64,000 nucleotides of DNA from Sphingobacteriales bacterium (GTDB lineage: Bacteria; Bacteroidota; Bacteroidia; Chitinophagales; Chitinophagaceae). This document shows, in pieces, positions 13,438-64,000 of the stretch. The position numbers were made by a program, and so were the translations under genes. Positions within the stretch are counted from its first letter, which is position 1, and the number at the start of each line of letters is the position of its first letter. The stretch spans positions 124,001 to 188,000 of the forward strand of contig JAHEBJ010000001.1 of assembly GCA_024642285.1 (NCBI GenBank), written 5' to 3'. The notes under the pieces were generated by a model. That model saw only the letters and a program-made list of their open reading frames with translations. It did no database searches and had not been told where the DNA came from.

Positions 13438-16400
13438 TTACCTAATAATAATCAGTTGCCTAACTATTCTTTCCGTGGCTGTTTCGATAATTATTGCATA
13501 GACTCCTTCACTTAGCTTGTCAAGGTTCAGATTAACATTATTGAATCCCTTTGTCAGTTTTTCTTTTTGACTTAAGACCTTGCTACCAACCTTATCAATC
13601 AATATAAATGAAGCCAGAATATTCTTATCAACATATAAGTTAACATTTACGTATCCGCTTGCCGGGTTAGGCATTATGGTAACGGGAGTTTGCGTTTGTG
13701 CTTTTCTTACAACAACTACATTGCTGTATTTAATTTCCCCCGTTTTGCCTATAATTTTAAGCCTGTAATAAATGATATTATTAGTAATATGGCTTGTATT
13801 GTCGGTAAATCCAAAACTTTGTTCTGTGTTTAATTTAACCATGTCTGCGACAATGCCAATTTTGTTGTAAAGAGAATTATCAGTACTACGTTCAATTTCA
13901 AAATGATCAACTTCTTTGTCAGCTATTATCGTCCAGTTTAGGTCTACATTTTTATTGTTTTGCACCGCATTAAAAACCAGGAATTGAATAGGTAGTACAT
14001 AACCAGTAAAACGCCAGTCACGGTCAGTCTGAGACGGAATTGTTTTTTGCACTGTTGTTCTTGAACCTGGTGTCGGGTCACCTGTAAATGTACCACCTGT
14101 GCCCATTCTGTATGATGTACCTTTAATATTTGTTACAGAATTCAATGAATCAAAACGGTTATCCAATCCATCACCATCGGAATCCAAACCAGTTGGCGTT
14201 ACATTATCATCAGGTAGTCCATTAAGATTAAAGTCATTGCCTTCCACAATATCTGCCATTCCATCATTATCAGTGTCGGTATCCCTGTAATCCGGTGTAC
14301 CGTCACCATCATGGTCATAAACAAATATGCCGGAACCTCCAAATGCTGCTGGTAAATTATCATAAGTATTTACAAGTCCATCACCATCTGTATCAATGAC
14401 ACCTGGCAATATATAACCGGCGGTTGTCTGTCCTTCAATATTATCCGGTATACCATCATTATCGGAATCTATATCTAAATAATCTGGATTACCTGAACCA
14501 TCTGAATTTCGCAAGTTTAAGGAACCTAAAGCGGACACAGTTGTTGACCATCCGTTAGTTCCAATAATACCGTCAGCTATACCATTAAGATCTGCATCTG
14601 GTAATCCAGCCTCAATCACGTCAACGATGCCATCTCCATCGCTGTCTAAATCATATGCGTTTGGCCTGAAATCACGGTCTATATTTTTATTTGGATAATC
14701 ATCCGCTCTTCCATCAATTGGAGAGATGTCATCACCAGTTTTTAATAAAGCTGTTGCTGCAAAATTATTATCACTTAAACCATCATTATTTGTATCTACA
14801 AATCCATCAATTACTCCGTTATTATTTGCATCGGAACCTCCTGCCTCAACTACATCGGGTATGCCATCGTTATCGCTGTCTGTATCTAAATAGTTTGGAA
14901 TGCCATCGTTGTCAAAATCAGGGGCACCCAGTCCAATTCCAGAACCAGTAACACCAGTATTATTGGCATCTACATTTTGGGAGAAACCATCTCCATCGGA
15001 ATCTGTGTAATTGTCTATAATACCATCACCATCTGTATCTACGCCATAAGCCTCTACTACATCCGGTATTCCATCGTTGTCGCTATCCAGGTCATATTGA
15101 TTGGGAATACCATCCAGATCTTTGTCTGACAAGTCATTTATGCCGTCGAGGTTAGTATCAACCCACGGAAGAAATGTAGGATCCATGTAATTTGGGATTC
15201 CGTTATTATTCGCATCAGCACCCCAGTCGAAATTATCGTTAACACCATCTAAGTTATAATCGACAAAACCCGGATAAGTAGGGTCATTCCAGTTAGGAAT
15301 ACTATTACTGTTTGCATCCTGTAACGCAACAGGGTTGTTGAATTCAACATAATCAGGGATACCATCATTGTCATCGTCAATGTCAATACAATTATTTATA
15401 GTTATGGTAACAGGTGTTACATCAGAATAATTACATGATGCTCCTCCAAGGTTTATTGCATTGGTAGCAACAACCATTCTGTATTGATCGCCGTTATTTG
15501 CAGCTGTAGTTGCAGAAGGTGGCAGGGTGTATGAATTTGTGAATTCATATAAACTTCCGTTCCAAACCGGAGAAGCAACACCTGAAGTTCCGGCTATATC
15601 AGTCCACGTTGCACCACCGTTGGTACTGAGCTGCCATTTATAATAGATATATACATTGTAGTAGGATCTTACTGTATCAGATATTGTGAGAGTCTGTCCC
15701 GCACATACGGCCGGACTGACTGATGGAGAATAGATCATGTTTGGGTAGCAGGTCCTGATGCTGATATCATCCAATGCCCAGTCGTTTCCACCACCTCCTG
15801 GAGCATTGTTTCTAAAAGTTAATCTGAATCCGGTTTGTGTAGAGTTGGTTTTATAAACAAATGAACGTTTTACCCATTTGTTTAAAGTGTCAGATCCGGT
15901 TTGTGTTCCGCCTAATCCCTGGTATACTAACTCTCCCGTTGTATAATAATCAACACCATCAACTTCCATAGCGATATTAGGACGTACACCTGCAGAATCT
16001 CCAGGTGCTGTTGGAATGTAGGTTGCTCCTGAAGTACCAGTACCGGTTGAATCGCAGCCGCATTTATAACATATATTTTTAAACCACGCAGAAATTTCAT
16101 AATAAGTATCTGTGCAGGCACCCGTTGCATTATATTCAAATGCAACGTCAGTTCTGTAAGCAGAATTAATGGCAAGCATGTAACCACATGGATTACTGAC
16201 ACTGATTGGTTGATTTAAATCGCACGGTGGATTTCCCTGAGAAATATTACCCGTATTGGCAGCTCCGGTATGATCACCGGTTATATCCCAAACACCAAAT
16301 ACTCGGGCACTGTTACTTTTAGGTACTGTTTGGTTAGTTGTTCCTGCCGCACTGGTATTGTTTGCTACTCCATAATAGTAATCCTGTGGTGAATTAGCAC

Positions 16401-27300: not shown

Positions 27301-30197
27301 TGATTCAAACGGTTACCAAACCTAATGCAGCAGCACGTGTATTCGGAGTATGGGATATTACAGGTGATCATTCAGGAGCTAGTAATACAGCAAAAGGAAA
27401 TGCACCCTGTGATCCGACCAAACCAATTGATCCCATAACAAATCCATGTGGTTATATGCTTGTAATAAACTCAGCATATAAGACTGATCTGGCTTTTAAT
27501 TTCAATGTGAATGGAGTCTGTACTGAAACATTTTATGAAATTTCCGGCTGGTTTAAAAATATCTGTTATAAATGTGGTTGCGATTCTAATGGCGTTGGAA
27601 CCGGTGGTGCTGGTTTTATACCAACAGCTTCCGGGGATTCTGCAGGTGTTCGGCCTAACATTGCTATTAAAATTAACGGAATAGACTATTATTCAACAGG
27701 TGATCTGGTATACCAGGGTTTAGGTGGCACACAAACAGGTTCTGATACCTTGAACAAATGGGTAAAACGTGCTTTTGTATATAAAACAAAGCCCGGTGAA
27801 AGCAGTTTTAATATTTCCTTTAGAAATAATGCTCCCGGTGGAGGTGGTAATGACTGGGCACTTGATGATATTATGATACGAACCTGCTATCCTAATATGA
27901 TCTATTCTCCATCTTCAAGTCCAACTGTTTGTGCAGGCAGAACGCTTACACTTACTGATACAGTAAGGTCTTATTATAACGTATACATTTATTATAAATG
28001 GCAACGAAGCGTTGATGCCGGTGTTAGCTGGGTTGACCTGGCGGGAAGTTCCGGTGTTGCATCTACAGTATGGAATGGCAGCAGCTATGAATATGTAAGC
28101 ACTTACACGCTTCCACCGTCTGCTACTACACCCAATAATAACGGCGATTTATACCGCATGGTTGTAGCTACCAATGCTGCAAATCTTGCAGGAAGTTGCA
28201 GTTATTCTGATGTTACAACAGTTACCTTAACTGTGCTCAATAATTGTATTGATATTGATGATGATGATGATGGTATACCCGATTATGTGGAATTTAACAA
28301 CCCGGTTGCGTTACAGGATGCAGACAGTGATGGTATCCCCAATTGGAGTGATACAGATTATCCTGGTTTTGTTGATAATAATTTCGATGGTGTGAATGAT
28401 AATTTCGACTGGGGAGCAGATTCTGATAATAATGGAATCCCTAATTATCTTGAACCAGGTTTTCCGGGCTTTGTAGATGTAAATAACGACGGCATAAATG
28501 ATAATTCAGACAAGGATCTGGATGGCATTCCAAATCAATATGATCTTGATAGCGATAATGACGGAATACCTGATGTGGTAGAGGCGTATGGTGTTGACAC
28601 GGACGGAGATGGTAAAATTGACAATTATACCGATACAGATAATGACGGATTGTCTCAAAATGTTGATGCAAATAACACCGGTGTTAAAGGTTCAGGTAAC
28701 GGATTAGGTGCTCCTGATTTTGATGGCGATGGTATTCCTAACTATCTAGATACAGATAGTGATAACGATGGCATACCTGATGTTGTTGAAGTTGATGGGG
28801 CATATACCACAAATAATGGAAAGTTGGCGAACTTCGTTGATGCAAATAAAGATGGTTTAAGCGACAATAATTTTGCAGCAACAGCTTTATTAAAAACAGG
28901 CGCAGATATTTTACCAGTTGATGGCAGAGCAGATAATTATCCTTTTAAAAATAAAGACCAGGATTTCAGACCAAATGCCTATGATATGGATAGTGATGGT
29001 GATGGAATTGTGGATGTACTTGAAGCCGGGTTCCCTGATGTAAATCTCGATGGAAAAATTGACGGTGTTATTGGCGCTAACGGATGGGCAACTGTTATTT
29101 CTTCACAACCAAGTTTAATTCTACGATACACCGATTCAGATCCTTTTCCCGACTATCTTGACATCGATTCGGATGGTGATGGCATACCAGATAATATAGA
29201 AGGACAATCAACAGCCGGATATAAATTGCCAGGCACTTTGGATTCAGATGGTGATGGATTGGTAAATACTTATGATAATATAGTTGGTTTTGGAGGGTCG
29301 GGTATCTTCTTGTATGATCACGATGGGGATAACATACCTGACTACCGAGATTTGGATACTGATAATGATGGAATACCAGATATCATTGAAGGGAATGATT
29401 TTAACCTCAACGGAATTTTTGATGATGATGTAACTCTAACTGGTTTGGATACCGATGGCGACGGATTGGACAACCGTTTTGATTCTTTGAATTCGGTTAC
29501 TAATATCAAAGGAACATCATACAGAATGGGCACAGGTGGTACATTTACAGGTGACCCGACACCAGGTTCAAGAACAACGGTACAAAAGACTATTCCGTCA
29601 CAAACAGACCGGGACTGGCGCTATGTTGGTTCAGTTTTACCTGTTCAGTTTCTGTCATTCACCGGAATAAAACAAAAGAGCATCGTACTGCTTAACTGGA
29701 ACATAATTGCCGAAAAACCAGTTGAACGCTTTGAAGTAGAACGAAGTATTGATAACAGCAATTTCAGTAAAGTGCAAACAGTAACTCAACAGGTTTTACT
29801 AAACATAACTCAAAATTTTTCGGTAAACGATGATATCAGCAATGTTTCCAATCCTGTAATTTATTACAGATTAAAAGTAGTTGGTAAATCCGGTGAGATA
29901 AAATACAGCAACATAATAGTAGTGAGATCAGACATTGTGAATTTGGATTTTGTAATTACGCCTAATCCTACAACGAAAATGGTTTCTGTTAAATTCAATT
30001 CGTCATTTGCAACAGAAGTATTTATTTATTTGTACGACAATAATGGAAAATTATTGATGACTCAAAAACAAAAAACAGTCAGGGGGGGCAACAGCATAGT
30101 CATAACAGATTTGAATAAGTTCAATACAGGCGTATATGAGTTAAAAGTGATAACCGGAGAGGAAACCTTTGTAAAAAAATTGATGATCAGGAAATAA
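24375..30197 (+). CDS. Giant secreted multidomain protein, paralog of 13438-18228, with five N-terminal modules, thrombospondin type-3-like repeats and T9SS tail
   Basis: Signal peptide; five repeats of ND.C.GA..LT....C..T...DVWYKF...LFSGTCGSL...GLT.G.TYYVRV...FNICVT; DxDGDGIPD array; C-terminal ITPNPTTKMVSV...KKLMIRK. Confidence 0.87.
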   Translation: MKLLLFSKAICKKRLLLLSVFFICALQVFAQPSNDDCANAINRSSSTNCNTNSYTMNNATASAGIPVGCASGGTHYDVWFKFTANNATHTVTISNLGANFTSPELQIFSGTCGALTSLVCGTTTVTATGLTSGNVYYVRVSKVGSNVTTNGGFDICITNPNPPPANDECTGATSLTSSTSCNNTQYSMRYSTASAGIPVGCASGGVHYDVWFQFTAVSTSQTVTISSLGSNITNPELQLFSGTCGSLTSLVCGTTTLTGTGLTIGNTYYVRMSNIGSAPTGGGSNSQFNLCLTNQNPPPANDNCSGATLLTSNYSCSSTTGNLRYATSANPPAGACGGATLTTTFDVWYRFQAVNATQTVTVGNLGANLSAASTYMEVLSGACGSLTSLGCQTVSTTSGRRTVAGLTVGNFYYVRVYVLLSPTASSTSNWNFDICVQHPPANDDCVGAVALTPGVACTNTSGTLDLSTISVGFPAGCVPASSYDVWYKFTAAAVTETITLNNLGSSLLAANMRIQIFSGTCAVLTSIGCVNATTITQAGLLIGTTYYVRIAYPSNPSGIGTVANFNICVTNAASPPANNQCSGAILLTSSTVCSNVSATFINATASAGLPACGNAASPDVWFKFVAQSAYPVITLSSLGANLSAANPRIQLFSGVCGSLVQLTGACVASPLNTATTPGGLGLTVGATYYVRITTVNLAAPVAAGTYTFNICITDPVAASIDYGKTYVNLTAGTTGGTVNPGDVLEIRAILVVARPGNAGPIKAIDSLAFYDTLTAGGGFKLLKDSMSVRTNEGKLFRPSKTTYFTDANDVTDEAWTTTAGAGTDTALQINMGLGATYAARGKLRTSSKPSNFGSTCIIMATYRVKVNAPYDTPIDFGGGAFRYRDTATGIFYTINFPKDSLMVYISPGSCPDATSPINIVGDEVNGTFGASPGPLGSPQSRGTSPNTNYLYAPFAASAPQDYYYSIANNTSANGSVIQTVTKPNAAARVFGVWDITGDHSGASNTAKGNAPCDPTKPIDPITNPCGYMLVINSAYKTDLAFNFNVNGVCTETFYEISGWFKNICYKCGCDSNGVGTGGAGFIPTASGDSAGVRPNIAIKINGIDYYSTGDLVYQGLGGTQTGSDTLNKWVKRAFVYKTKPGESSFNISFRNNAPGGGGNDWALDDIMIRTCYPNMIYSPSSSPTVCAGRTLTLTDTVRSYYNVYIYYKWQRSVDAGVSWVDLAGSSGVASTVWNGSSYEYVSTYTLPPSATTPNNNGDLYRMVVATNAANLAGSCSYSDVTTVTLTVLNNCIDIDDDDDGIPDYVEFNNPVALQDADSDGIPNWSDTDYPGFVDNNFDGVNDNFDWGADSDNNGIPNYLEPGFPGFVDVNNDGINDNSDKDLDGIPNQYDLDSDNDGIPDVVEAYGVDTDGDGKIDNYTDTDNDGLSQNVDANNTGVKGSGNGLGAPDFDGDGIPNYLDTDSDNDGIPDVVEVDGAYTTNNGKLANFVDANKDGLSDNNFAATALLKTGADILPVDGRADNYPFKNKDQDFRPNAYDMDSDGDGIVDVLEAGFPDVNLDGKIDGVIGANGWATVISSQPSLILRYTDSDPFPDYLDIDSDGDGIPDNIEGQSTAGYKLPGTLDSDGDGLVNTYDNIVGFGGSGIFLYDHDGDNIPDYRDLDTDNDGIPDIIEGNDFNLNGIFDDDVTLTGLDTDGDGLDNRFDSLNSVTNIKGTSYRMGTGGTFTGDPTPGSRTTVQKTIPSQTDRDWRYVGSVLPVQFLSFTGIKQKSIVLLNWNIIAEKPVERFEVERSIDNSNFSKVQTVTQQVLLNITQNFSVNDDISNVSNPVIYYRLKVVGKSGEIKYSNIIVVRSDIVNLDFVITPNPTTKMVSVKFNSSFATEVFIYLYDNNGKLLMTQKQKTVRGGNSIVITDLNKFNTGVYELKVITGEETFVKKLMIRK
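24463..26520 (+). repeat. Five tandem copies of a ~115-140 aa secreted module within the giant protein
   Basis: Recurring ANDxCxGAxxLTxxxxC...GLTVGNTYYVRV...FDICIT blocks in the translation. Confidence 0.85.
28243..29621 (+). repeat. Asp-rich thrombospondin type-3-like repeat array
   Basis: Repeated D(S/T)DGDGIPD, DLDSDNDGIPDVVEA, DFDGDGIPNYLDTDSDNDGIPDVVE. Confidence 0.85.
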
Positions 30198-58870: not shown

Positions 58871-58999
58871 ATTATTTATTTAAGAGTCGTCCGTAGATCA
58901 AGATGATATGAGTTGTGTCACTAAAATTCAAAGTCTGAAATGATGAACCTTACTGGTGGCGGAGCCCACAGAACCTTCCTGCCTTAAACAAAAACTGAT

Positions 59000-59012
59000 G
59001 TTATGCACAGTC
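59000..59012. repeat. Cassette-terminus-like core, distal end of homocysteine methyltransferase unit
   Basis: GTTATGCACAGTC; complementary (10/13) to AATTGTGCACAAC at 59987-59999. Confidence 0.5.
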
Positions 59013-59022
59013 ATTTTTGATG

Positions 59023-59973
59023 TCAGGTAGCCATGACCTGACTTGCAATTTCAAGGACGTGTTCTTCGTCGGTGCCGCAACAGCCGCCAAATACGTTTAG
59101 CTGATTAAATATTTCCTTCAGCTTCTTATTCTCTCTACCTAATTCCTGTGGGTTTCCCCTGTCTAATTCTGTTGCGTTATCCAACTCAGCATGACTTTTA
59201 CAAGAAGCATTTGCCCTAATTCCCTTTATTCGCTTGGTCCACTGCTCCTTTATTCCGTTTTGCAATTCATTTATAAAGTGTTTTGGATGGGCGCAATTAA
59301 TCATAAAATATATCGGAGGTTCTTTTACACTTTCGTCAACTTGTTCAATTGCTTCTTTTAAATTTATTCCTGCTGGCAGTTTGCCATTGGTTTCAACTGT
59401 AAAAGAAATGACAACAGGAAGATTTAAGGTATTAGCAGCTCGTACAATGCCAATTGCTTCCTCTACATAATTCATCGTAATTGCTGACACCATATCAACT
59501 TGTGCACCTGCAAAAACTTCTATTTGCTTCAAATGATATTCTTGCGCTTCATCAACAGTCATTTTATTTTCAGGTTTATACCCATCGCCACGAGGACCAA
59601 CGCAGCCACTTATAACAATAGCAGGTAAAGCATCTTCAAATTCATCTTTCAAATCAACCAAAAGCTGAACTGCTTTTTCATTGACTGTTAATATTGCTGA
59701 CTTTGGGTAGCCAATTTTTTCAATCCAATCAGTGTTCGCCCGCCAGGTAGGGCTTTCCAAAATGAAACCTGCTTTTGAATCTTTTGCAATATTCAAATAC
59801 CGTCGATAATAATCCCTAAGTGCATTATAACCTTTTTCATTTTTTAGTAAATCAAAAGCAGCAAAATGCGGAAGTTCATAGCCTTCAAGGAAAACAAGCG
59901 TCGTTTCTAGTCCGCCGTCAGTTAAAAACAAATCAGCAGATAAATTCGGTAGAATGGTTTTACTATTTGCCAT
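59023..59973 (-). CDS. Homocysteine S-methyltransferase family protein
   Basis: FLTDGGLETTLVFLEGYELPHFAAFDLL; ISGCVGPRGDGY; FGGCCGTDEEHV Zn ligands; start trimmed from ORF start 60087. Confidence 0.93.
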   Translation of the reverse strand: MANSKTILPNLSADLFLTDGGLETTLVFLEGYELPHFAAFDLLKNEKGYNALRDYYRRYLNIAKDSKAGFILESPTWRANTDWIEKIGYPKSAILTVNEKAVQLLVDLKDEFEDALPAIVISGCVGPRGDGYKPENKMTVDEAQEYHLKQIEVFAGAQVDMVSAITMNYVEEAIGIVRAANTLNLPVVISFTVETNGKLPAGINLKEAIEQVDESVKEPPIYFMINCAHPKHFINELQNGIKEQWTKRIKGIRANASCKSHAELDNATELDRGNPQELGRENKKLKEIFNQLNVFGGCCGTDEEHVLEIASQVMAT

Positions 59974-59986
59974 AGTGATGTTTTTT

Positions 59987-59999
59987 AATTGTGCACAAC
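59987..59999. repeat. Cassette-terminus-like core, proximal end of homocysteine methyltransferase unit
   Basis: AATTGTGCACAAC; reverse complement GTTGTGCACAATT. Confidence 0.5.
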
Positions 60000-60016
60000 G
60001 GGCGGGGCTTTGTGCT

Positions 60017-60042
60017 GGGCTGGACGTTAAAACGTCCAGCCC
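60017..60042. repeat. Perfect stem-loop in spacer
   Basis: GGGCTGGACGTT-AA-AACGTCCAGCCC. Confidence 0.85.
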
Positions 60043-60045
60043 CGG

Positions 60046-60108
60046 AACCGCTGCTGATTGAAAATATGAGTTTGAAGTTAACAACAAAAAGCTAAATAGG
60101 CATTCGTC
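60046..60108. repeat. Conserved intergenic block, copy A
   Basis: AACCGCTGCTGATTGAAAATATGAGTTTGAAGTTAACAACAAAA...ATTCGTC. Confidence 0.75.
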
Positions 60109-60132
60109 AAGCCCCGATATGATGCACAGTAG

Positions 60133-60156
60133 AACCTGCCTGCCGGCAGGCAGGTT
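60133..60156. repeat. Palindromic intergenic repeat copy 1 (perfect 24-bp palindrome)
   Basis: AACCTGCCTGCCGGCAGGCAGGTT. Confidence 0.9.
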
Positions 60157-60220
60157 ACCGCTGCTGATGAAAACCAGGCCATGCCCGTATATTGGTAAAC
60201 CAATGTTGGCTGAAGCCTTT

Positions 60221-60619
60221 TTAAGTCATTAATTTAATATCAAGCCCTTTCCTCAATGTGTTTTGAATTTCTGCAACTTTGTCCGTATGCTTGATTAATT
60301 TTTCAATATCTGATTTGGGAGAGTCAGATATTACACTTGTTTTATACATAAAATTAGTTCCAGCTTCACCTTCGGCCCCAAATTCACCAGTAACTTCAAC
60401 TTCAACACCTGATATTTTTATATTCATTTTGTCTGCTTCCCGATATAAGTCATTACAAAAGCAAGTTGCTAAAGAAAGTAATAAAAGTTCTCCACCATTT
60501 ATAGAAGAACCAAATCCTGAATGTTTAGCTGAAATATGCATTTCCTTAGCAGATTCATTAGTCGTTACAAAAATTTCATGGTGCTTGAATTTACTTTTTA
60601 TTGTAGCAGATATTTTCAT
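60221..60619 (-). CDS. OsmC-like family protein
   Basis: GGELLLLSLATCFCNDLYREADKMNIKISGVEVEVTGEF. Confidence 0.92.
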   Translation of the reverse strand: MKISATIKSKFKHHEIFVTTNESAKEMHISAKHSGFGSSINGGELLLLSLATCFCNDLYREADKMNIKISGVEVEVTGEFGAEGEAGTNFMYKTSVISDSPKSDIEKLIKHTDKVAEIQNTLRKGLDIKLMT

Positions 60620-60691
60620 AACTATTAATTTGTAGATAAAGTTTCAGTAAGCATAGCAGCAAACTGATTTTTGGCGGTTCGTTGTTCCATT

Positions 60692-61393
60692 TTACACTAG
60701 TTGGGGATTTAGTTGAGTTCTTTTAATGCCTTTTATTAGTAAATAAAAGCAAAAAATCCATTCTCCAAGTGCACAAGGAATAAGGATTGCTGGATATACC
60801 ATGTTTACAAAGTTTGGAACAAGAAACCAAACAATGCTGTTGAAAATATAGCATACACCTCCAATAAGTAGCAGAATTCCCAGCCATTTTGGAAAAATGA
60901 CTGATAAAACGATTAAACGACAAAGAACAAGTAAGTGGAAGCCAAAAAACAAAAGACTAATATTATATCCTGTCCCGTGCAACTTAATTGTCAATAAAGC
61001 CAAAGCGTTGAGTTGGTCGGTATTGAATACGGTAAGGAAATCAGCTTCTTTTAAAAAGGATAATGCTGCAAAATGAGTCAAGGCAACAACGCTTAAAATA
61101 GTAATGCTGGCAAACCTGAGTAAAGTAGAAAGTATAGATAGAGGTCTGTTAGTTTCCTTCAATAAAATGAAAAGGATTGAGGTTACGCCTACATCACACA
61201 GTAACATGAATAATTCACTTACAAAACCAAACCGGTACCAGAATTCAGAAGACAAAATGTTCTTTGCAGTAACAGTTGCATTATTATAGTCAACCAAACT
61301 GTCACGAACAAAGATTTGAGCAATGAGTCCCAAAATTATTATTAATAAATAGAGGAGACCTCCAATTCTTGCGATAGTAAATTTTTGATACAT
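60692..61393 (-). CDS. DUF4386-like multi-pass membrane protein
   Basis: KFTIARIGGLLYLLIIILGLIAQIFVRDSLV...; start trimmed to MYQKFT from ORF start 61417. Confidence 0.75.
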   Translation of the reverse strand: MYQKFTIARIGGLLYLLIIILGLIAQIFVRDSLVDYNNATVTAKNILSSEFWYRFGFVSELFMLLCDVGVTSILFILLKETNRPLSILSTLLRFASITILSVVALTHFAALSFLKEADFLTVFNTDQLNALALLTIKLHGTGYNISLLFFGFHLLVLCRLIVLSVIFPKWLGILLLIGGVCYIFNSIVWFLVPNFVNMVYPAILIPCALGEWIFCFYLLIKGIKRTQLNPQLV

Positions 61394-61459
61394 TGTCGTT
61401 TTTTCTACAAAACGCATAACAGGAAATTTTGTTACAATCTAATAGTGGATCCGCTGCCC

Positions 61460-61480
61460 AACCTGCCTACTGGCAGGCAG
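61460..61480. repeat. Palindromic intergenic repeat copy 2
   Basis: AACCTGCCTACTGGCAGGCAG. Confidence 0.85.
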
Positions 61481-61538
61481 ATGTACTTACTAAAGTACAG
61501 AATATATTGTGTTGATGAGTAGTATTCCGTCGAACCCG

Positions 61539-61560
61539 AACCTGCCTACCGGCAGGCAGG
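61539..61560. repeat. Palindromic intergenic repeat copy 3
   Basis: AACCTGCCTACCGGCAGGCAGG. Confidence 0.85.
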
Positions 61561-61597
61561 CTTAAGCCGATAAAAGTTACTGCTGCCCGGCTCAACG

Positions 61598-61621
61598 TTG
61601 CGTCAGCCCCAGCTGACGCAA
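61598..61621. repeat. Perfect stem-loop in spacer
   Basis: TTGCGTCAGC-CCCA-GCTGACGCAA. Confidence 0.85.
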
Positions 61622-61629
61622 AACCCCTT

Positions 61630-61643
61630 GTTAGCTGCAGTGC
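61630..61643. repeat. Cassette-terminus-like core, distal end of NTF2-like unit
   Basis: GTTAGCTGCAGTGC; reverse complement GCACTGCAGCTAAC. Confidence 0.6.
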
Positions 61644-61662
61644 TACTTGCGGGACGAAAGAC

Positions 61663-62169
61663 TTAATGTTTAGTGGAATCTGTTTGGGCATGCTCTTGCA
61701 TTGATTCTTGCAGGAAGACGACTTTCCATTTGCTGTTTATTTTTCTGAATAACATCGACATACCAAAAGGTTCATATCTTACTTCCTGTCCGTTTTTGTA
61801 AGTTGCTATTAATGCGCCTGAATAGCTCCACAATACATTGTCCTCACTTAAATACATGTATTTTTCTGTACCCTTTGCAATTATTTCACTAGTGAGTTGC
61901 GCATAAAACTGTCGAACCATATTTTTATAAGCAGCCTTGTTATAAAATACGCCTGAGGTCTCTACATAAGTGAAGTCATTACCCGAAAAAGAAAATAAAT
62001 TATATAATTTTGTCGTGTCAACTTTGGCTGCCGCATCATGAATCTCTCCAATCACAGATTGAATTTCACTTTGTATTTGTTGCTTTTGGTCTTCACTTAA
62101 TTCAGTGTTTGATTTTTGCGAGCAAGAAAATAGAATTATTGTAATAAGCAGCGGAGTTAAAACTTTCAT
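61663..62169 (-). CDS. NTF2-like (SnoaL/DUF4440-type) lipoprotein
   Basis: Lipobox LFSCSQKS; compact NTF2-like domain with YMYLSEDNVLWSYSGALIATYKNGQEVRYEPFGMSMLFRKINSKWKVVFLQ. Confidence 0.7.
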   Translation of the reverse strand: MKVLTPLLITIILFSCSQKSNTELSEDQKQQIQSEIQSVIGEIHDAAAKVDTTKLYNLFSFSGNDFTYVETSGVFYNKAAYKNMVRQFYAQLTSEIIAKGTEKYMYLSEDNVLWSYSGALIATYKNGQEVRYEPFGMSMLFRKINSKWKVVFLQESMQEHAQTDSTKH

Positions 62170-62215
62170 TTTATTAATAATAATTAGAAATTTAAAATTA
62201 TTAAAACGTCAAATC

Positions 62216-62229
62216 GCATTGCAGCTAAC
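62216..62229. repeat. Cassette-terminus-like core, proximal end of NTF2-like unit
   Basis: GCATTGCAGCTAAC; reverse complement GTTAGCTGCAATGC matches the other end at 13/14. Confidence 0.6.
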
Positions 62230-62274
62230 ATCCAGTTCTTTGTGCAGTTGGGGAATAAAATTCCGTCTGCTCAT

Positions 62275-62335
62275 AACCGTTGCTAATTGAAAATATATTG
62301 TTGAAGTTAAGAACAAAAGTTGATAGTAATTCGTC
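62275..62335. repeat. Conserved intergenic block, copy B
   Basis: AACCGTTGCTAATTGAAAATATATTGTTGAAGTTAAGAACAAAA...ATTCGTC. Confidence 0.75.
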
Positions 62336-62430
62336 TGATGGAACTAAAGCTTAAATTTACAGTTAGCTGATGTTAGAGGGTCTGGCCCAACTTGCATAAT
62401 ACCCAATGTTATCGGCTATCCTTTTTCTGT

Positions 62431-64000
62431 CTACCGTTTTTGGACCTTGTTTTCTATCCACTTATTAACTTTTGTTTCCAGAATGATGAGGGGTAAACAG
62501 CCGTCTTTTAAAACTTCATCGTGAAACTCTTTAATGTCAAATTTATTTCCTAATTTTTTCTTTGCTCTTTCACGCAGCTCAATAATTTTTAATTCCCCCA
62601 CTTTATAACTCACTGCCTGTCCTGCCAAAACCATAAATCGTTCTATCTTTTGTTCAGCATCAATGGATGATACTGGTTGATTCTCCAATACATAAGCTAT
62701 GGCTTTTTCCCGGGACCATCCATTGTAATGTATTCCTGCATCAACAACTAATCGAACTGCCCTTTCTATTTCTTGATTTAGTCTCCCCAAATATTGATAG
62801 GGGTCTGTGTACATACCTAATTCTGTTCCTAAACTTTCAGCATATAATGCCCATCCTTCCCCAAAAGCACTTGTCCAATATGCTTTTCTAAATTCTGGAA
62901 TATCGGCTTCCTGTTGAATAGCGAACTGGTAGTGATGCCCAGGAATAGCTTCGTGCATAAACAGAGATTCCATTGAAAAATAATTGTATTTAGCTGGGTC
63001 AAGTACTACCTCATAAAAAATTCCTGGTCTTGTTCCATCTCTCGATGACTTAGTGTATTGAGCATTAGCACCAGCAGCACGAAATTTTTCAGTAGCTCTT
63101 ACTTCAAACTTTGCTTTTGGTTTTAAATTAAAAAGGATATTCAGTTGTGGCGACATTTTATCCTGAAAACTTCTGAATTTATCCAACACTTCCTCTTCCG
63201 TTTTAAATGGAAAGAATTTAGGCTCAGTTCTTACATACTGAAAGAAAGACTTTAAATCACCTTTAAAGCCAACTTTTGTTTTTAAAGAATCTATTGCTTT
63301 ACGGATGCGTGAAACTTCACTAAGCCCTAAAATAAAAATTTGCTTGGCTGTAATGTTGGTTGAAGTGTAATACTTTAACCATAATTCGTACTCTTTCTTC
63401 CCATTAGAATTATCTAAAAGCCCTGATGTTTTTCTTGCTTTGGGTATATAATCAGTAACTATATAATCGTGTAATTTTTTATAGGCTGGTTTAATAATAT
63501 TTTCAATAGCATCTGAATAATCTTTTTTTAATTGGACCGCAGAAGTACTATCTAAGTTGTCAGGAAGTTTTAGTAAAGGCTTATAGAAAACATTTTCTTG
63601 ACTTGTACCTACAAATAATGGTTTTAATTGCGGTGGCACTTTTTTCATTGCAGCCCTTGGGTTTGTATTATTTAGTGCTATACCTTTTTGCATATTAGCT
63701 ATTGCTTGGTCAACCCAAATTTGAAAAAATTTCATACGGCTAATAAAATCTCTATAGTCCTTTTCAGTGTTGAAAGGAATAAATCCTGCTCCTGAACCTA
63801 ATGTGGCAAACTTTGTTGGAAAGCTAAATACGAATTGGTCAACAGGTTTGTAAAACCCCAAAGAATTATTTAGTATTTCGTTTTCGGATTTCAGCTTGTA
63901 GGTAAGCACATCAATACTTAATAGTTCTGATTCTGTTAAACCTGATTTACTTATGAAACGTAAAGTGTCAAGATATTTTTTATTTAATGCTTTTGCCTTC
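62431..64000 (-). CDS. DUF885 family protein, 5' end truncated by window edge
   Basis: FMHEAIPGHHYQFAIQQE zinc-peptidase-like motif; the frame stays open upstream of the listed GTG 'start' to the window end (...KKYLDTLRFISKSGLTESELLSIDVLTYKLK). Confidence 0.9.
   Translation of the reverse strand, partial: KAKALNKKYLDTLRFISKSGLTESELLSIDVLTYKLKSENEILNNSLGFYKPVDQFVFSFPTKFATLGSGAGFIPFNTEKDYRDFISRMKFFQIWVDQAIANMQKGIALNNTNPRAAMKKVPPQLKPLFVGTSQENVFYKPLLKLPDNLDSTSAVQLKKDYSDAIENIIKPAYKKLHDYIVTDYIPKARKTSGLLDNSNGKKEYELWLKYYTSTNITAKQIFILGLSEVSRIRKAIDSLKTKVGFKGDLKSFFQYVRTEPKFFPFKTEEEVLDKFRSFQDKMSPQLNILFNLKPKAKFEVRATEKFRAAGANAQYTKSSRDGTRPGIFYEVVLDPAKYNYFSMESLFMHEAIPGHHYQFAIQQEADIPEFRKAYWTSAFGEGWALYAESLGTELGMYTDPYQYLGRLNQEIERAVRLVVDAGIHYNGWSREKAIAYVLENQPVSSIDAEQKIERFMVLAGQAVSYKVGELKIIELRERAKKKLGNKFDIKEFHDEVLKDGCLPLIILETKVNKWIENKVQKR

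Follow-up and report, generated by a model that had tools for sequence, protein, structure and literature searches.

A probable integron-like gene-cassette array in Bacteroidota, with attC-like sites and a non-IntI tyrosine recombinase

Genes and sites near a contig end

The window analysed here is a stretch of 64,000 nucleotides from contig JAHEBJ010000001.1 (C110) of a Sphingobacteriales bacterium of the Chitinophagaceae. Close to the contig end, it carries genes interspersed with sites of about 200 bp that resemble the attC sites of integrons. Read in the orientation of the adjoining genes (minus strand), the element runs R''(NNNNAAC)-ATTGG-L''(GTTTNNNGCAAG...), about 130 nt that include the block described below, L'(...CNNNAAGCCC), a spacer and GTT R'. 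The features are as follows.

58880-59009, minus strand: distal-most site remnant (motif at 58995-59009), with R'' TGTGCATAAC at ~59000-59009 and no R'
59023-59973, minus strand: cassette gene, homocysteine S-methyltransferase (PF02574); own ends GTTGTGCACA / TGTGCATAAC
59992-60214, minus strand: attC-like site 1, containing a REP-like insertion; cassette-boundary motifs, with R'' at the 60.21-kb end and R' GTTGTGCACA at ~59990-59999; E=5.3e-31 with a nine-site profile, partly by construction since the profile includes this copy
60017-60042, minus strand: variable hairpin GGGCTGGACGTT/AACGTCCAGCCC, apical to the L' box
60046-60108, minus strand: conserved block, copy 1, apical (VTS) part of site 1
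60221-60619, minus strand: cassette gene, OsmC-like (PF02566), in the same inter-site interval as the DUF4386 gene
60692-61417, minus strand: cassette gene, DUF4386 (PF14329)
61453-61640, minus strand: attC-like site 2, diverged, with REP-like insertions; R'' TGCAGCTAAC at ~61630-61639; nhmmer E=3.5e-6
61663-62169, minus strand: cassette gene, SnoaL-like (PF13474); own ends GTTAGCTGCA / TGCAGCTAAC, complementary 10/10
62221-62417, minus strand: attC-like site 3; R'' AGCCGATAAC near 62408-62417 and R' GTTAGCTGCA at ~62220-62229; E=1.6e-31 with the same profile, again partly by construction
62275-62335, minus strand: conserved block, copy 2, apical (VTS) part of site 3
62431-64000, minus strand: cassette gene, DUF885 (PF05960), running beyond the window to a next site at C110:188269-188469

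The original prediction had singled out two conserved blocks, each beside a variable stem-loop, and had read them as a recombination site or a structured RNA element. Both blocks are real: 60046-60089 and 62275-62318 align without gaps over 44 bp at 84% identity, and a blastn search of the genome with 59980-60130 recovers the second window copy at E=7.9e-7, together with stronger copies on C48 (87% over 98 bp, E=1.2e-26) and C17 (80%, E=2.6e-19) and others on C99 and C149. The motif said to precede the blocks, CTTTGTGC, is present at 60008-60015 and 62238-62245, and the two differing hairpins lie where they were described, at 60017-60042 and 62252-62264 (GGAAT-AAA-ATTCC). The element itself, however, is not 61-63 bp long but about 200 bp (59992-60214 and 62221-62417, in minus-strand orientation), the blocks being the apical parts of attC-like sites in a gene-cassette array at the contig end. 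A diverged third copy lies between the two (~61453-61640) and a fourth past the window edge.

The window array is a partly decayed stretch. Because its L'' GGTTTACCAATA fails to pair with its own L' GCACAAAGCC, site 1 is, to judge from these boxes, a hybrid or decayed site. About 13/18 of the expected L-stem pairs are intact in site 3 (counted by eye), and sites 1 and 3 are probably both decayed, since their L stems are partly broken. The distal remnant is missed by the site profile; its TGTGCATAAC matches the start of the site 1 cassette, GTTGTGCACA, at 9/10 bases. No recombinase was seen beside the C110 sites in the part examined, the contig stopping 389 bp beyond site 4.

A REP-like palindrome, AACCTGCCTGCCGGCAGGCAGGTT, lies inside several attC-like sites (window 60130-60157, 61457-61480 and 61536-61559, and also the sites of locus L046). 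Elsewhere in the window, two regions on opposite strands (14251-15402 and 28239-29398) contain long internal Asp-rich protein-coding repeats.

Cassette boundaries and site structure

The original prediction was to stand or fall with further copies in the genome or its relatives and with covariation in the stem. Copies proved numerous. Profile R1, built from nine copies on sequence only, finds 12 copies at E<1e-12 in this genome and, besides these, several that are weaker or truncated. Of 59 congeneric genomes, 45 have one copy or more and 29 have five or more. Being specific to the genus, the profile has hardly any matches in the order's other genera or at named recombinase-homologue loci outside the genus. 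The 112 site matches in the fetched arrays lie on a single strand within each array, the largest of which holds 42 sites in 62 kb (G015:C13). Inter-site intervals have a median length of 765 bp and usually hold one gene, the longest ORF being co-directional with the sites in 89/95 of them.

In a cassette that has been circular, the sequence following GTT at the start is expected to be the complement of the sequence that precedes AAC at the end. The cassettes' own ends are complementary at 5.78/7 positions (73 cassettes). Shuffling ends among the cassettes gives 3.42±0.14 (3.93 at most in 5000 shuffles), and comparing both ends of a single site gives 3.47. The ends continue to match over roughly 14 bases, except at one fixed position, 11, where R' is A in 81/83 and the partner matches in 5%. 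Three consecutive cassettes on C99 of this genome are perfect (GTTAGCTGCA/TGCAGCTAAC, GTTGTATGC/GCATACAAC and GTTAACGAC/GTCGTTAAC). Such complementarity is the mark of the circular integron cassette and therefore of former circularity: as read from their ends, the cassettes are shown to have each existed once as a circle joined within GTT. Directional, mostly single-gene cassettes and complementary R' and R'' with a boundary at GTT, which characterise canonical integrons, are thus found here.

Two non-adjacent cassettes of the largest array (G015:C13 38316-38933 and 46054-46672) are 78% identical over nearly their full length, by duplication or re-capture. Two cassettes of this genome were sought in 59 relatives and neither was found, so that no movement between genomes was caught.

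Covariation was assessed on 133 sites aligned without structure. The strongest covarying column pairs share a single nested register (i+j=202) that runs without a break between 14-188 and 32-170. Across the 17-pair L stem, 90.8% of cells are paired versus 67.0% in shuffles and 35-56% when the register is slid, and cells with a double change number 487 against 183±9.6 expected (0/500 shuffles). A stem therefore does covary, but it is the outer L stem and not the hairpin that had been named: the latter lies apically and contributes none of the covarying pairs that were counted, and CTTTGTGC is one arm of the true stem, whose opposite arm, TTTTRTGCAAG, lies across the block. The L stem contains a fixed 1x1 A·C mismatch at 26·176 (117/127) and no bulge.

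The motif GTTNNNNGCA-A is common to L'' and R'. Folded, the site has two inverted arms on either side of a spacer that is short and unequal, and the odd A occupies the same position in each arm; the L stem, unpaired central spacer and variable terminal structure are those of a foldable attC site as defined earlier (PMC2727003). Canonical attC sites have an extrahelical G in L'' (PMC2727003). Here neither that G nor an extrahelical T is found in L'', the pairing register being unbroken save for the A·C mismatch. Within the attC-like sites, a GGGC(T/A)GGAC-like motif recurs at nhmmer model positions ~31-39, 80-88 and 150-157, and the conserved block includes an A/T-rich TTG...TATTTT-like stretch resembling a Bacteroidota promoter.

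The recombinase at the array head

A tyrosine recombinase of about 400 aa stands at the array head, its 3' end facing the sites, in genomes G015, G043, G008, G058, G052, G039, G003 and G030. In this genome (G000, contig C65) and in G020, G021 and G041, the recombinase gene ends at most ~300 bp from a contig end, a point where assembly of repeats would break. About 100-400 bp past the recombinase stop, there are cassette-type start sequences, GTTNNNNGNA-A, and similar sequence precedes them in several genomes (ATACACAT / TTCGTATATTTATGA), marking a putative attI. Its junctions read ...ATACACAT^GTTGTGGGCAATTG in G000 and G015 and ...TTCGTATATTTATGA^GTT in G043 and G008; ahead of it, by eye, a TTG...TAnnTTT-like sequence is a candidate for Pc, the promoter that would read into the cassettes.

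Across the 59 congeners, a full-length recombinase is associated with the presence of at least five sites (18/23 vs 11/36; Fisher p=5e-4, a value that is too optimistic because the genomes share ancestry). Some array genomes have no recombinase at E<=1e-40, including the one-contig G038 with 15 sites; other genomes have a recombinase with few sites or none (0 in G031 and G033), and the recombinase of G017 has the opposite orientation. The genomes' Xer proteins were considered as the enzyme, and those found are not located at arrays. At G034:C80 (L144) and G017:C9 (L132), the recombinases that adjoin the sites are of a different type or divergently oriented; more than one enzyme may serve the arrays.

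The array recombinase is not an IntI. On the integron integrase model TIGR02249 the array recombinases score 160-206 bits, below the cut-off of 265 and with the middle of the model unmatched, whereas true IntIs from five genomes score 371-487 bits; among 25 congeners, no match over the cut-off that would indicate a true IntI was found. The KGxKDR and HxLRH motifs are separated by 58-61 residues in 18/18 array recombinases, by 100 in 5/5 IntIs and by 64-66 in Xer. Judged by this spacing, the array recombinase lacks the IntI-specific domain of ~40 residues (I2). In a quick tree without bootstrap, IntIs form a clade (SH-aLRT 100) and the array recombinases branch apart from them, together with other recombinases of Bacteroidota (support 88). 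The best NCBIfam model is the XerA-type NF040815 (186-227 bits, cut-off 220). A C-terminal SPLD motif is common to array recombinases and IntIs, and Foldseek with an AlphaFold model of moderate quality (pLDDT 78.6, pTM 0.49) gives VchIntIA (2a3v) as best PDB match.

An extra N-terminal domain, seen at residues 24-105 of L050 and in L130, has a W(S/T)xTxxCWYxP motif and a predicted beta-beta-alpha-beta-beta-alpha fold; a Pfam scan of this domain gave no match. In L130 (G052, ~591 aa), related N-terminal segments appear repeated.

Homologues of the recombinase occur across Bacteroidota in a scan of named genomes. Near them, cassette chains with the same end rule were found in Rufibacter sp. SYSU D00344 (6 cassettes, control 1) and in Seonamhaeicola aphaedonensis and Algibacter onchidii (3 each, control 1), using 9-nt words, which separated signal from controls in the palindromic-chain scan; 7-nt words were too noisy, with controls as high as signals. 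The AAC-to-GTT length is ~54 nt in most Rufibacter sites and ~117-120 nt in typical flavobacterial sites. Most other homologue loci in the named genomes have no cassette chain.

A probable integron-like platform and its alternatives

Very probably, the conserved blocks belong to attC-like sites of a gene-cassette array of integron type, and a recombinase other than IntI drives this integron-like platform. The cassette architecture, the former circularity and the covarying stem are shown, at the level of sequence, by the data above. From the position of the recombinase and the anatomy of the site, we infer that the array-head recombinase is the enzyme, that the active form of the site is a folded single strand and that its polarity is set by the fixed mismatches. 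The recombinase (on C65 in this genome) would bind both inverted GTTNNNNGCAA arms of a site folded from one DNA strand, would join circular cassettes at attI, and would excise cassettes by attC x attC recombination as IntI does, but without an I2 domain.

The single-strand step has a competitor that leaves the cassette architecture untouched: the sites could be used as double-stranded DNA in an Xer-like manner, the covariation then being the palindromy of two inverted half-sites. Palindromic duplex half-sites could indeed covary too, and the recombinase lacks the very domain that has been tied to single-strand recombination (PMC7790495). The covariation nevertheless continues beyond the 11-nt arm into a stem of ~19 bp, with halves ~140 nt apart, so that in a duplex R''/L'' would form one site and L'/R' another; nor does a duplex site have an obvious need for the fixed A·C of the L stem or for the R-stem A opposite a non-matching base. 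We therefore judge duplex use unlikely, though it is the strongest of the alternatives. Less likely still is that these are ordinary cassettes of CALIN type, with a canonical IntI acting in trans or lost and the neighbouring recombinase a bystander. The R and L boxes, central spacer and terminal structure fit attC, recombinase-free arrays such as that of G038 exist, and CALINs are common (PMC9668308). Such a reading sits poorly with the 25 congeners that lack a TIGR02249 match over the cut-off, with an L stem devoid of the extrahelical base present in canonical L'', and with a recombinase that stands repeatedly at the array head by the putative attI, as do homologues in other Bacteroidota.

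Of the two readings in the original prediction, the recombination site gains from the attC anatomy and the cassette boundaries. A structured RNA, or likewise a terminator or REP-type dispersed repeat between genes without recombination, would suit intergenic, hairpin-rich elements in many copies, some with REP-like palindromes inserted. It fails to predict that the outer ends of an interval are complementary to each other and not to their own site (5.78 vs 3.47 of 7), and Rfam has no match at E<=0.1 to 57-64 kb of the window. As cassette boundaries account better for the sites, we regard this as extremely improbable.

The integron-like platform shares much with sedentary chromosomal integrons such as the VchIntIA / VCR superintegron: tandem, directional one-gene cassettes, a GTT boundary, a putative attI beside a tyrosine recombinase, and sites with R'', L'', L' and R' boxes, an unpaired central spacer and a long terminal structure. 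It differs in a recombinase that lacks the ~40-aa IntI domain and lies outside the IntI clade, in a continuous L stem whose A·C mismatch is fixed and which lacks an extrahelical G, in an R stem of ~14 bp, and in sites of ~200 nt in the genus with a conserved interior. In reverse ('inverted') integrons, for example of Treponema, the recombinase gene likewise points towards the array; these carry a genuine IntI, whereas the present recombinase fails the IntI model. The window array, with no recombinase beside it in the part examined, resembles CALINs (attC clusters without intI), but the same sites in relatives adjoin a recombinase, though not an IntI. Unlike XerA-type proteins (NF040815), many array recombinases have an extra N-terminal domain, a position at the array head and an IntI-like C-terminal SPLD. 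To our knowledge, no cassette role has been described for XerA. Because defining features of the canonical integron were tested and are absent, we classify the system as an integron-like variant.

Acquisition of the I2 helix has been put forward as the innovation behind single-strand cassette recombination, unknown in other proteins (eLife 2020, PMC7790495), and a 2021 classification of tyrosine recombinases considers the insertion essential for integron function, although not fully conserved in an integron-like subgroup (PMC8138268). With IntegronFinder 2.0, the sole complete integron in Bacteroidetes proper was that of Salinibacter ruber (PMC9024848). The literature searched, to which most subscription journals and all bioRxiv preprints did not belong, yielded no account of the present system. 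Tentatively, and with slightly more doubt than confidence, we propose that Bacteroidota have an independently evolved integron, in which an XerA/SPLD-type recombinase works without I2, A·C mismatches set polarity in place of extrahelical bases, and the N-terminal domain possibly binds the single strand.

The system may thus represent a distinct way to build gene-swapping arrays. I2 is the feature by which integron surveys define intI; if our reading is true, gene capture of integron type either arose or was maintained along a different route, and such surveys overlook it in a major environmental phylum. The need for I2 would then be directly testable on a natural system, which also supplies further accessory genes in mobile form and, possibly, new DNA-integration tools.
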